Part shown: in pieces, positions 7,199 to 56,661 of the stretch
How the letters are laid out: the number at the start of each line of letters is the position of its first letter
Numbering within the stretch: position 1 is the stretch's first letter
From: a virus
Strand: one strand, 5' to 3'
Length of the DNA stretch: 56,661 bases
IMG/VR virus record: IMGVR_UViG_3300043395_002017
Coordinates: 1 to 56,661 of that record
Made by a program: the position numbers and the translations under genes
The notes under the pieces: model-generated
Seen by the model: only the letters and a program-made list of their open reading frames with translations
Database searches by the model: none
Told to the model about the DNA's origin: nothing

Positions 7199-8631
7199 TG
7201 GCTTTTAGTCTTGTTGGATTTGGTGCCGGTCTTGCTGAAAGCTTGACTGAGCGCATCGAAGAAGAGCGTAAGTTTTCCAATCTTGCGTTGCAGGGTCGCA
7301 TTGAGCGTGCGTCCGTGTTGAAAATGCAGCAAGAAAAAGAAGCAAAAGCTATTGAAGAAGACCTCAAGGGCAGGCTTAATACGCTGAAAGAATTCGGTGT
7401 AAACGATCCTGAATTGCAGAAAGCATATTTGTCTGCCCCTACAGCGCTCGAAGCCTTGCAAAAGGCAAAGCTGTCTGGTCTTGAGGTTGATCCAAAAGCG
7501 CTTATCACCGTCAATAAAGACAAGCTCTTCGCGGGCACTCCGGAGGAAATGATTAGGGCAGCAACACGTCCGACAGGTACAGTGAAGGCTGCAACGATTA
7601 CGCCAACAGAAGGCGGCAGCATGTTTGCTCCGTCTGCTGGTATGCAACAACAGCGTTTCCAACAAATCGCTAGCATGCGCGGATTGACGCCGGAAGATGT
7701 TGGTCGTGCTGAAGCAGGATTTACTCCGCAGCGTCCTGAAGTGGCTGCGTCGATTAACTTCGAAGCGTTGAAGAAAGAAGACAAAGCAACGTGGAAACAA
7801 AAGCTTGAGCGCTACGAAACCAATTACGCTGACACGGTTCAGCGTTTTGGTGCCGACAGCCCAGAAGCAATCAAAGCAAAGGCTGCGGTAGATAGCTATC
7901 GGGTTACTACCAATAATTTGACGGAAGAGCAATTCGATCACGCTAAAAAGCTGTCTCGTGCTAATGCCATCATGTTCGATAAGACCATGACCAATGTAAC
8001 TGATCAAGATCGGGCATGGGCAAAAAGCTATTTGGACAGCTATAACGCATACAAGCGCCAACAAGAAGCTTTGGGTAAGCCTGACGAAAAGATTCCTGCA
8101 CCGGGATCACTCGTTAGCATTGCCCGCACCGCAGGCGCTAATGCTGTTCGCAACACCTACGGCACAGGTGTTACTCGTGCGCAACTTGCTTTCGTTACCA
8201 ATCAAGACGGCAGCACCTCTGTTCAATACTCTGGTGATGATCCTGAGATGCAAAAGCGCATTGTTCGTCGCGAACAAGAAGGCGTCGTTGCTTCGTTGCG
8301 GATGTACATGACGCAGGATGGTCGAGTGACGGATAAGAAAGTAGAGCAGGCGCTGTCTGCATTCGGTATCACACTTGATGAGAATCAAAAGCCGGTTCTC
8401 ATTGAAGCTGCTCCGATGCCTCCTGCTCGTGAGCGTCCTGCTGTTCCTCCGCGCACTCCGGCTGCGGCAGCTTCAGCGCCTTCGACACCGGCTCCAAAGC
8501 CTGCTACAACACCTGAAGGATTTCCTCCCGGTAGCAAAATTGCTCGCAATGAATTCGTTGCCGGTAAAGGATTCAAGGTTTATAATGCCGAAGGTAAGCT
8601 AATCGGCTACGCTCAATACAATCAAGAATAA
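7198..8631 (+). CDS. Putative internal/ejection virion protein, 477 aa
   Basis: The N-terminus (1-60) is a charged helix (FGAGLAESLTERIEEERKF...) likely to be a coiled coil, the middle is Ala/Lys/Asp-rich helix, and residues ~400-445 are a Pro/Ala linker (APMPPARERPAVPPRTPAA) before a short compact C-terminus 'GFKVYNAEGKLIGYAQYNQE'. No enzyme motifs. It lies between two other large virion proteins and has the size and composition of podophage ejection proteins such as T7 gp15 or P22 gp20. Function inferred from position. Confidence 0.72.
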   Translation: MAFSLVGFGAGLAESLTERIEEERKFSNLALQGRIERASVLKMQQEKEAKAIEEDLKGRLNTLKEFGVNDPELQKAYLSAPTALEALQKAKLSGLEVDPKALITVNKDKLFAGTPEEMIRAATRPTGTVKAATITPTEGGSMFAPSAGMQQQRFQQIASMRGLTPEDVGRAEAGFTPQRPEVAASINFEALKKEDKATWKQKLERYETNYADTVQRFGADSPEAIKAKAAVDSYRVTTNNLTEEQFDHAKKLSRANAIMFDKTMTNVTDQDRAWAKSYLDSYNAYKRQQEALGKPDEKIPAPGSLVSIARTAGANAVRNTYGTGVTRAQLAFVTNQDGSTSVQYSGDDPEMQKRIVRREQEGVVASLRMYMTQDGRVTDKKVEQALSAFGITLDENQKPVLIEAAPMPPARERPAVPPRTPAAAASAPSTPAPKPATTPEGFPPGSKIARNEFVAGKGFKVYNAEGKLIGYAQYNQE

Positions 8632-11600: not shown

Positions 11601-12120
11601 GGAAGGTGAATTCTTCAATCGTATTGTTGGTTTCCGCACCATCCCGAATCCGACAGACGCCGAGAAAGAAATCAATAAGCACAGCACCGATCTGTTCAAG
11701 GTGTATGGTCGTCCCAGTGGCGATAAAGATTTTGACCGGGCATATATCAGCAACGTCAATGATTTTGCAATTAGCTTCGTAAACAGCGCCATTCGTCGTC
11801 CTGATTACAAAGAAGGCACTAGCGAAGAAAAGAAGATGATCATTGACAATGCTATCCGTGCTGCAACAGAGCGTGCTAAAGTAAAAACAGAAGGTCAATT
11901 CGCACAGGATTTCCCCGATAAAATTGATCGGATTCGTTATCTGCGCCTGTCGTCTGAAGAAAAGAAAATCGTTAATCAACGCTATGCAAAAGACAACAAC
12001 GGCAGGACGATGGAGGAAGACAAAGCCTATAAGCAGTTGCCGCTGTATTCAGACTTTGGTAACGTAAAATTTGCGATGGGCGGTGTGGTACAACAGATGC
12101 AACATTTGTTCGGAAGATAA
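8641..12120 (+). CDS. Very large internal/ejection virion protein, 1159 aa
   Basis: Largest protein read on one side of the junction. The N-terminus has three spaced copies of an (R/K)FVP(L/V) motif (residues about 2-6, 24-28, 40-44) separated by Gln/Pro/Ala linkers, like short docking motifs. The body is helical. A hydrophobic or amphipathic region near 740-830 contains 'SLVIPFPRFVTNAIAFQYKY' and 'ATVGLGMLAAAYDYRV', fitting a protein that inserts into the host envelope. It ends in 'MGGVVQQMQHLFGR'. Size and place match T7 gp16-type ejection proteins, but I see no lytic transglycosylase signature. Confidence 0.75.
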   Translation: MRFVPLSEAETTTEQQQAQPKPLRFVPLDTAEIAPAPKAKFVPVSEALTPDDIRKQAEEDRKRYREQTGLAPSTTAPVEGTGGAAFGVFAVQGKQRRENIEARKAAQEPKISMDELTNRDDYFSIANQYMKAVGQPMFDEKKESRRDFIERFYSERRFADFNTVLGTIPELAALKNSNLDTQEAIALGRRMYEQAESAGAPGGPSALRATWDIVKSVATDPSTYLGLGAGKAVSTGVVRTGAKKLSEDVATRTLEKQALSKTAKRAEVGASALTETAVAGAADITAQRAERATAEIMGEEVPEYSATRTAIVSILGGTLSAAASAKATKAPTIRERGEIISDEITRRNITPANPTAPLTEAEQQISKALTTDFDDVHSQYVKAYGKALLNQLDPATAVTDAKVQEPYSRTAVRVALQLIKDNPTQYGFNPAKEQISDAVYRTLSQVDTIDDVALEAAVNKAGLRPDQFAAMMKTTVSEAAKTMQAYSAASRVVNRMRQIDSTFDQRMKELYSVDNDGVSALTKVGEGIQRVERESKALITSGIDTLARNLIGNNIALTIKTGVQMLEGLRYSVGTALSAADGTRVATLKTTMGDAFSDALGTFYYLRNRGLAEDVTEKVLENNPSLLSRISTATQDTEMENVSRLAKWSQTLNNAMDGMYRRASFASSLERELRRVGVDLYKDVLAQNKEIPASVLKRSMDEAFKDTFSYTPQMYAKSFSAFEDSFERVGAQFVRMAEAPGASLVIPFPRFVTNAIAFQYKYSPLGFIGATEYVTQAAKLRAAGQLDKAEMVAREGATKAIQATVGLGMLAAAYDYRVNNPDKPWYQLGDVDVRAIFPLSPYLGLADWLARDVAGGTGNAPTKEIAENIMGFKMPAGSQNSFLTTIQEMAGSEEKWDKVVEGLGKVAGDFMGRFTQPFVTKQIFDLIDLIRGDEAVMARDPNVLTAETAGGKAVEAAAQRVQAKLPVVKEELPPAIVRFKEQETPSKEGEFFNRIVGFRTIPNPTDAEKEINKHSTDLFKVYGRPSGDKDFDRAYISNVNDFAISFVNSAIRRPDYKEGTSEEKKMIIDNAIRAATERAKVKTEGQFAQDFPDKIDRIRYLRLSSEEKKIVNQRYAKDNNGRTMEEDKAYKQLPLYSDFGNVKFAMGGVVQQMQHLFGR

Positions 12121-35737: not shown

Positions 35738-35753
35738 GTTAGTGGTCACTAAC
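35738..35753. promoter_or_regulatory. Operator-like inverted repeat, copy 1
   Basis: GTTAGTG-GT-CACTAAC, 7-bp arms with a 2-bp centre. An exact second copy lies 253 bp away. Confidence 0.6.
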
Positions 35754-35990: not shown

Positions 35991-36006
35991 GTTAGTGGTC
36001 ACTAAC
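35991..36006. promoter_or_regulatory. Operator-like inverted repeat, copy 2
   Basis: Exact copy of the 16-bp site at 35738-35753. Two identical 7-2-7 sites in the divergent region fit a dimeric regulator; the HTH-like 51-aa protein is one possible binder. Confidence 0.6.
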
Positions 36007-36198
36007 TTAGCATGCCAATAAAAACAACGACCTATCCCGATCTTGTGCATCCTGCCGCACACACCATCACCTACATCACCCAACACCACACGACACCATC
36101 CGGCACCAAACGACACCATCCTGCACTACAATGACAGCAAAAACATAGCTTTGTCGCATTGACGACGCGGGGTCAGCAACAACACCATGCTATGGTGA

Positions 36199-36213
36199 TG
36201 AGAATCATTCGCA
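36199..36213. promoter_or_regulatory. Fur-box-like sequence
   Basis: TGAGAAT-C-ATTCGCA fits the 7-1-7 Fur consensus (TGATAATnATTATCA) at 11 of 14 arm positions. It lies about 50 bp upstream of the -35 of the RNA at 36296, which is not the usual overlap with a promoter. Directly before it is a CACCAT-GCT-ATGGTG hairpin (36183-36197). Confidence 0.3.
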
Positions 36214-36260
36214 TTTACATAGAATAAATGGGGACAGAGACACAACAGAGTTGCTTTTGC

Positions 36261-36289
36261 TTGACAAAGACACGCAAGCTATGTAAAAC
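36261..36289 (+). promoter_or_regulatory. Promoter of the putative ncRNA
   Basis: Consensus TTGACA (36261-36266), 17-bp spacer, TAAAAC (36284-36289). First plus-strand promoter of the divergent region. Confidence 0.6.
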
Positions 36290-36295
36290 TGGGGC

Positions 36296-36731
36296 TGTCG
36301 ATTGGACGGGTAACGGTGGCAATCGGCAACGACTGTAAAGTCGTCATAGCGCTACCACGGGAGAGACATTGAAACAGCGCAAATGGATGGCGAAGATAGC
36401 GTCCTAATGTCGAAAGGCTGTCGTAAGAGCTAACAAGCTCTAAAGGCTCCCCACAGGAGTCTTAGTGTATCTATAGAGTGTTAATGAACAATAATAACAT
36501 TTTGATGCATGCTTCTAGTTGGTTTCATCTTTATACCTTGTTAACAATTTAAACACGCCAGTATCAGCACTCTAATAAATAAACATTGTTTTTAATCTAA
36601 CAAACATTGTTACTTCTAACATTGCTAATGTTAGAAACATAAAATAACAAAGATGTTGTTCTAAGTCGCTAATGTAACCGATAACAACCTATATAGTCTA
36701 CATAAGGGAATTCTAACGAGTTCCCTTTTTT
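36296..36731 (+). ncRNA. Putative structured non-coding RNA, about 435 nt
   Basis: Bounded by a promoter (36261-36289) and an intrinsic terminator (36704-36731), with no convincing open frame. The 5' half is densely paired: GGTGGC/GCTACC (36315-36320 with 36351-36356) enclosing ACGACT-GTAA-AGTCGT (36329-36344); GACATT/AATGTC (36365-36370 with 36406-36411) enclosing GGATG/CGTCC; AGAGCT-AACA-AGCTCT (36426-36441); an 8-bp AAGGCTCC/GGAGTCTT stem (36443-36463). The AT-rich 3' half has a perfect 10-bp hairpin with a GCT loop (36614-36636). The octamer GGCTGTCG occurs twice (36293, 36416), and ACAGC (36374) can pair with either. I could not match it to a known class. Confidence 0.6.
36704..36731 (+). 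terminator. Intrinsic terminator of the ncRNA
   Basis: AAGGGAA/TTCCCTT stem extended by TTC/GAG around a TAAC loop, followed by a run of T to 36731. Strong and correctly oriented for the plus strand. Confidence 0.85.
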
Positions 36732-36753
36732 GTTAACTAAAAGCAGGGTGTTG

Positions 36754-36782
36754 TTGACACACAACGTATTTTGGTTTACATT
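36754..36782 (+). promoter_or_regulatory. Promoter opening the plus-strand gene block
   Basis: TTGACA (36754-36759), 17-bp spacer, TACATT (36777-36782), ending 22 bp before the GTG start at 36805. Confidence 0.75.
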
Positions 36783-55700: not shown

Positions 55701-56661
55701 GTTTTGATTGGTACACCGCGCCGTCTGGGTTGCCTTCAACGGGCATGACCCTCAACTCCTCCGGCAACCTCGGTCTGGGGGTGACGCCGAGTGCGTGGGG
55801 TCTCAGTGGCGCAAAAGCTGCTCAGGTAATGAACGCTTCGTTTTGGGGCTACCTGAACAACGCCTACGTAAGCGCAAACAACTACAACGACGGCACGGGC
55901 AATAAGTACATCGCAACGGGCTTTGCAAGCCGCTACGAACAATCATCTGGCGCTCATGTATGGCAAACCGCCCCCTCCGGCACAGCAGGAAACGCCATCA
56001 GTTTCACGCAGGCGATGACGCTGGATGCGTCGGGTAACTTGGGAGTGGGTCAAACCTCCCCGGGATATAGGCTTGATGCGCGTACATCCGGCACCAACGA
56101 TATTGCATTTTTTGCAACCTCAGCAGGTGGCGGGTCGCGCATTTTGTTCTCAGATGGGAACACAGGCACTCAAGCATCTGCTCCGCGTATTGGCGCAAAT
56201 GCAAACGATCTGCTGTTCTATACGAACACTAGCGGCAACAACTCCACCGAACGCGCACGGATTACGTCGGCAGGTGAATTTCTTGTTGGCAGTACCGTAG
56301 TCAACGGAAACGAGAAACTGGGCGTTTATGGCGATCAAAACTCCTCGCTCAACATTCGTGTTCGCAACATCAACGCCGGTTCTTCTGCATCTTCCGCTAT
56401 TGTATTGAACGCATCTGGCAATGCTTGGGGTATTGAGTGCGGTTCTTCTGCTAAGAACAGTAATGCTTTAACGTTCCAGTTGGATTACCTCGGGACAAAC
56501 TCAGAAAAAGCCCGCATCACCTCGGCAGGTGAATTTCTGATTGGCAAGACTTCAACGAGCAACGCAGTACAAGGGTTGGCTCTTTACCCAGATGGTCAAA
56601 TGCGAATGACCACAGATGGGACTGCCTCTAACACAATTATTGGGTTTTTTAGAAATTCATC
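52766..56661 (+). CDS. Tail fibre, N-terminal and shaft part (3' partial; continues at base 2)
   Basis: Starts at GTG 52766, five bases after AGGAGA; frame agrees with 2-847, giving about 1410 residues in all. N-terminus VAGYSRQSAASIVPTAVVRA attaches to the tail. The shaft has repeated collagen-like or beta-helix units such as 'SGGTMTGAIAMGTNKITG' and 'DPTSAQDAATKTYVD', an Ala/Ser-rich coil, then many receptor-side repeats 'LDASGNLGVGTTSPG'. The last part is the self-cleaving chaperone at 2-847. Internal DNA repeats (55214-55272 and 55985-56043) allow domain shuffling. Confidence 0.93.
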   Translation, partial: MAGYSRQSAASIVPTAVVRATPLNDEFNALRDAFVVATGHKHDGTSTEGAYIPLVSDTNARNKVVVDSTNNRISLFINVSSAAVEQLRLIDGAILPVTDNDIDLGSSTFEFKDLFIDGTANIDSLVADTAAISGGTINSTVIGGTTPAAGTFTTVSATVSATIPTATISGGTINNTIIGATTPAAGTFTNLTVNTAATIASAAISAGTINNTVIGGTTPQAVTGTTITANTGFVGALTGNVTGNVTASSGTSTFNNATVNGTLSATLTGNVNASSGTSTFNNVTISGTLNMDGATAATITNLSSPVNNSDAATKLYVDTSISNLVNSAPGTLDTLNELAAALGNDPSFATTVTNSIATKLSLSGGTMTGAIAMGTNKITGMGDPTSAQDAATKTYVDTQRDTRLALSGGTMSGAIAMGTNKITGLGDPTSNQDAATKIYVDGILGSATSAAASAAAAATSASNAATSASNASTSATNAASSASAAAASAAAAAASYDSFDDRYLGVKTSDPTLDNDGNALITGAIYFNSSAGEMRVWTGSAWASTLLTTGAQTFIGVKTFASNPILSAGTANGVAYLNGSKVLTTGSALTFNGTRFSTYVTSDTNTNIARFGVVNSAVTDDAVLDISADAANNLITLNSTGNNAGSFAFQTGNTEQMRLTSTGLGIGTSSPAYKLDVSSASTPVARFTGSANAYVDFSDGTVTSRLQNSGALLFGTTSNHSLLLRTNSTTQATLDTSGNLGLGVTPSAWISSYRALNIGDSGLVSSRTGASINNIEIGVNWFRDSGAAFRYKANGFGTNYQQFDGAHYWYTAASGTAGNAISFTQAMTLDASGNLGVGTTSPGSRLDVVGTGTFSGSLGRVIISSTVQNSYALQVSSTNGTSAQGVDIDSRSPTGVAGNQTALRVRNNTDVWMQIDAFNGNVGIGTSSPATKLQVVGTATFGDGTNGQIRLTSNSSINYLDSLNNAATGWQNIVSRATSFDWYTAPSGLPSTGMTLNSSGNLGLGVTPSAWGLSGAKAAQVMNASFWGYLNNAYVSANNYNDGTGNKYIATGFASRYEQSSGAHVWQTAPSGTAGNAISFTQAMTLDASGNLGVGQTSPGYRLDARTSGTNDIAFFATSAGGGSRILFSDGNTGTQASAPRIGANANDLLFYTNTSGNNSTERARITSAGEFLVGSTVVNGNEKLGVYGDQNSSLNIRVRNINAGSSASSAIVLNASGNAWGIECGSSAKNSNALTFQLDYLGTNSEKARITSAGEFLIGKTSTSNAVQGLALYPDGQMRMTTDGTASNTIIGFFRNS
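55214..55272 (+). repeat. Direct repeat within tail fibre, copy 1 (59 bp)
   Basis: Identical to 55985-56043. Encodes the 'AGNAISFTQAMTLDASGNLG' unit. Confidence 0.9.
55985..56043 (+). repeat. Direct repeat within tail fibre, copy 2 (59 bp)
   Basis: Identical to 55214-55272; shorter shared blocks with GGCATTGGGACGAGTTCGCC also occur twice (near 54757 and 55532). Confidence 0.9.
56152..56661. repeat. Right copy of 510-bp terminal direct repeat
   Basis: Identical to bases 1-510; the unit genome is therefore 1-56151. Confidence 0.97.

Follow-up and report, generated by a model that had tools for sequence, protein, structure and literature searches.

What occupies the gene-free stretch between the divergent operons of this phage, and what might it do? 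The window (the whole 56,661-nucleotide stretch analysed, IMG/VR record IMGVR_UViG_3300043395_002017) begins and ends with an exact 510-bp direct terminal repeat (1-510 and 56152-56661), which makes it very likely that the contig is a whole phage genome. A preliminary description had read the stretch as a stand-alone structured RNA gene and as a candidate for a kind of RNA not described before. We find that it is a single-copy, stand-alone RNA gene of Rfam family RF02932 that has a promoter and a terminator of its own and three pseudoknots in its compact core.

All elements of the unit lie on the plus strand. We identified a sigma-70-type promoter, TTGACA-N17-TAAAAC, at 36261-36289 (TTGACA at 36261-36266 and a weak -10 element, TAAAAC, at 36284-36289). 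In the six aligned genomes (the window, L088, L008, L030, L271 and L270), TTGACA, its spacing and TGTAAAACTGG are kept; TGTAAAACTGG is absent from those large terminase (TerL) relatives without the RNA that were checked. No open reading frame of at least 40 amino acids was identified on either strand from 36135 to 36668. The unit ends in a strong intrinsic terminator (hairpin 36704-36727 plus a T run, together 36704-36733), which is kept in L088 and L008 and replaced in L030 by a different hairpin and T run. The promoter, the gene-free stretch and the terminator of the preliminary description are thus all present and, together with the covariation described below, bear out its stand-alone structured RNA gene. 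The predicted transcript comprises a conserved pseudoknotted RNA at 36293-36475, delimited by the Rfam match and by our own covariance model, and an AT-rich trailer at 36476-36703 that is poorly conserved in the alignment of close relatives. In a shuffle test, folding is somewhat better than for shuffled sequence in the 5' part (z -1.89) and no better in the AT-rich half (z -0.56). A perfect 10-bp hairpin had been noted in that half; it is present (near 36615-36637) but is absent from L008, L030, L270 and L271, and a functional second half is unsupported.

Two other features were seen close to the unit. Identical copies of an operator-like inverted repeat, GTTAGTGGTCACTAAC, lie at 35738-35753 and 35991-36006, both upstream of the RNA within the divergent region. 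A second promoter-like site (TTGACA-N17-TACATT, 36754-36782) is located just past the terminator, ahead of a gene for an 83-aa protein of unassigned family; of the relatives checked, only carriers of the RNA show the motif of this site.

The identity of the RNA is almost certain. Positions 36295-36426 match RF02932 (Betaproteobacteria-1 RNA) over the full length of the 120-position Rfam model (positions 1-120) with 67.1 bits, well over the gathering score of 49.4. Because the curated threshold of a known family is exceeded, this is not an undescribed RNA, and the earlier view that no class fits it falls. RF02932 also scores above threshold in each of 20 relatives searched with Rfam, a set made up of viral contigs, two GenBank phages and, close to the window, L270 and L271. 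A covariance model of our own, built without the window, recovers 36294-36483 (66 bits, E 5e-18), and the consensus helices of the family are retained with compensatory changes. Searches for other classes were negative: neither ARAGORN nor Rfam recognised a tmRNA or tRNA-like element, the Rfam family of phi29-type packaging RNA stayed below threshold in the window, no Rfam match to GOLLD or ROOL reached threshold, and no ribozyme family in Rfam matched. Open-access literature searches returned no paper discussing the RF02932 RNA.

The structure was derived from a structural alignment of 46 relatives from which the window was left out. The conserved RNA is about 190-200 nt long and has seven helices (P1-P7), among which P2, P4 and P6 cross others and are pseudoknots. 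Proposed partners can pair in 87.8% of cells, compared with 72.2% after shuffling and 35-43% when partners are slid, and double changes occur in 278 cells versus 83 when shuffled. Covariation is seen in P1-P4, P6 and P7 by the shuffle and slide controls, and the functional strand follows from G-U pairs in P2 and P6. In the window, P1 (36299-36304 with 36320-36325) differs in sequence from that of L008, L030, L271 and L270 and pairs fully in each. It is followed by a genus-specific insert hairpin, P1.1 (36329-36333 with 36340-36344), which is compensated in L008, L271 and L270. P2 (36314-36319 with 36355-36360) joins the P1 loop to the P3 loop, with GU/GC/AU/CG and CG/UA exchanges across the 46 relatives. 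P3 (36349-36353 with 36376-36380) and P4 (36365-36370 with 36406-36411) covary. P5 (36385-36387 with 36402-36404) is mostly GGG/CCC but reads GGA/UCC in the window and GGC/GCC in L038 and L068. P6 (36395-36400 with 36417-36422) is paired in 46 of 46 relatives, and one of its pairs occurs as CG, UA, AU, GC and UG. By sequence comparison, P7 (36426-36441) has a short loop in the window, and a hairpin, P8, follows at 36445-36461; P8 is visible in the sequences read and was left out of the covariation count because its register varies. Identity and fold are both well supported.

These results also bear on what the preliminary description said of the structure. It saw nested stems in the first ~170 nt; the helices are not simply nested, three of them being pseudoknots. 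The octamer GGCTGTCG is indeed present at 36293 and 36416, as is ACAGC at 36374, but the repeat is not conserved: the first copy varies (L008 reads GCATCGTA), the second forms the 3' strand of P6, and ACAGC overlaps the 3' strand of P3. Thus, the proposed switch between two folds is unsupported.

The real RNA is larger than its Rfam model. The model and the window RNA have in common the core sequence and its helices P1, P3 and P6, whereas P2, P4 and P5 are missing from the model and the conserved RNA continues for about 70 nt past its end, through P7, X, P8 and X'. In relatives, this 3' domain comprises P7 with the loop GyGGCUCCR-X, then P8, then GyYCACCA-X'. A variable sequence of ~9 nt is therefore present twice in most relatives, in the P7 loop (X) and at the 3' end (X'); the two copies are near-identical within one phage and different among phages. 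Among 22 non-redundant X types the longest stretch common to X and X' averages 7.0 nt, compared with 3.3 nt when permuted (0 of 5000 permutations); the rows were hand-curated and the uncurated version gives 6.8 versus 5.0, so the exact means depend on the choice of rows. The y base is the same in both contexts in 32 of 35 cases. No complement of X was identified in the RNA or in cis, nor did eight phage records contain a third copy. Targeting of mRNA was considered for eight phages, X being absent from the window form: there was no preferred start-region site and none specific to a phage's own X, and a base-pairing sRNA with such a start-codon target was rejected for these phages.

The window genus (the window, L046, L088, L008, L030, L271 and L270) departs from the rest of the family in having the extra P1.1 hairpin and in lacking both X and X': its P7 loop is short, and P8 is followed by no X'. 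It keeps the promoter, the core and the helices, and P1 and P1.1 are rewritten in sequence yet still paired. Exceptions are the P1.1 strands tried in L030, which misfit, one mismatch in P6 of L271, a bulge in P6 of L270, and the P7 strands tried in L270, which pair partly.

The family is carried mostly by many unrelated phages, and is rare and sporadic in bacterial genomes. A scan with a strict pattern, adopted for the counts because a first, looser pattern also gave chance matches, identified the RNA in 94 viral stretches. One carrier that is a laboratory phage is Acidovorax phage AP1 (OM049504, record positions 11855-12056). In samples of bacterial genomes that included genomes already known as carriers, 5 of 300 Burkholderiales genomes were above the cut-off, as were 4 of 399 Pseudomonadota genomes (own model) and, in the class of an Azonexus strain, 1 of 274, which is that strain itself. 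All 22 records considered have one RNA copy per record; the Caballeronia temeraria genome (L374) has two (6608 and 19633), 13 kb apart and with the same X. Among the TerL relatives of the window that were retrieved, the RNA is confined to the two closest, which show 91 and 85% identity, indicating recent gain or loss within that group. Weak matches in L267 and L268 were set aside as apparent coding sequence, and core-like matches in L297 and L298 as chance.

Genomic context varies by lineage. The RNA lies between divergent operons in the window, after genes for ParB-like, helicase and TOPRIM primase proteins in the largest lineage, and ahead of a T7-like primase-helicase in another; in one lineage other than that of the window, terminator-like sites (identified by reading) flank it on both sides. 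Arrays of tRNA genes adjoin it on the same strand in L253 (6 genes, 7207-7782) and L107 (8 genes, about 200-1030 nt downstream of the core). In L253 (MW202545.1), the RNA locus (7794-8251) is annotated as two hypothetical proteins, probably a mis-annotation. One chromosomal copy is in a likely prophage (L376); others lie close to LigD/Ku or metal genes (Caballeronia and Paraburkholderia) or to defence genes. The copies in L377, L379, L381 and L386 adjoin the latter (HmaABC with type IIG RM; PDC-S06 with Hhe; GmrSD with HNH; Avs2). Overall, no significant genomic neighbourhood was found for the RNA.

This variability bears on function. No protein family is common to nine RNA-bearing phages (the best is present in 4 of 9), which, together with the changing neighbours, counts against a cis role or a single dedicated phage protein. 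Likewise, no constant downstream gene or regulon of the kind expected for a riboswitch or mRNA leader was identified. A cis-acting leader that alters the elongating polymerase, as in put-like antitermination, and allows read-through of the terminator into the late operon is unlikely. The RNA and the following operon are on the same strand in the window, with the terminator and then the late genes, and many relatives have the RNA upstream of plus-strand genes. However, the late operon has a promoter-like site to itself past the terminator, the downstream genes are unrelated among lineages and some are on the opposite strand, and chromosomal copies lie away from operon starts. Also unlikely is a role in phage-host conflict (anti-defence or competition), with capture by chromosomal defence islands as well. 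Such a role would fit the proximity of some chromosomal copies to the HmaABC and type IIG RM, PDC-S06, Avs2 and GmrSD/HNH genes, but defence genes are near about 4-5 of ~11 independent chromosomal loci versus roughly 2-4 of 19 control loci, counts that are approximate and a difference that is not significant.

A ribozyme or self-processing RNA seems improbable: the multi-pseudoknot fold and long invariant single-stranded stretches are consistent with it, but there is no match to an Rfam ribozyme family and no conserved cleavage junction was seen outside the core. The primase genes that adjoin the RNA in the largest lineage might point to a packaging or replication-origin RNA, which we consider very improbable given the negative packaging-RNA search, the position that differs by lineage, the distance of 5.4 kb to the large terminase gene in the window, and the presence of the RNA in bacterial chromosomes. 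Even so, a ribozyme or a cis element would be expected to give much of this sequence evidence too.

The reading we prefer is that the window encodes an RF02932-family RNA that serves as a stable, trans-acting scaffold, its core engaging a host factor. We give this whole statement a probability of about 0.4, judging from sequence comparisons; the mechanism by itself is more tentative. Once the phage infects, the near-invariant core would bind a host component that is itself conserved. Most members would also display a phage-specific sequence in two matched copies, X in the P7 loop and X' at the 3' end, for a partner peculiar to that phage; the window genus, having lost both copies, would retain the core function alone. 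The family match, the covarying fold, the unit's own promoter, the single copy per record and the changing gene neighbours count in favour of this reading, as do the identity of X and X' and their joint loss in the window genus; the negative searches for a cis complement, a third copy and a start-region target of X count against it. It is rather doubtful, although conceivable, that the RNA is a programmable module moving between unrelated phages, the core serving a host machine and X/X' directing it to a nucleic acid or protein specific to the phage; in that case the window genus would be an unaimed form.

Two known systems offer comparisons. GOLLD and ROOL RNAs are associated with tRNAs, and like them the RF02932 RNA is an intricate, stable, phage-borne RNA gene, placed beside a tRNA array in L107 and L253; it is, however, much smaller, differs in sequence and fold, and does not match their Rfam families. 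The put RNAs of phage HK022 are RNA structures near the start of an operon. The RF02932 RNA is likewise an RNA structure in a phage near an operon start, but it is far larger and more conserved, has variable downstream genes and ends in its own terminator.

An orphan Rfam family named for bacteria is thus mainly phage-borne, larger than modelled, and contains three pseudoknots that covary and a segment whose two copies co-evolve. The phage setting, the pseudoknots and the X/X' pair provide concrete handles for working out what this widespread structured RNA of phages does.
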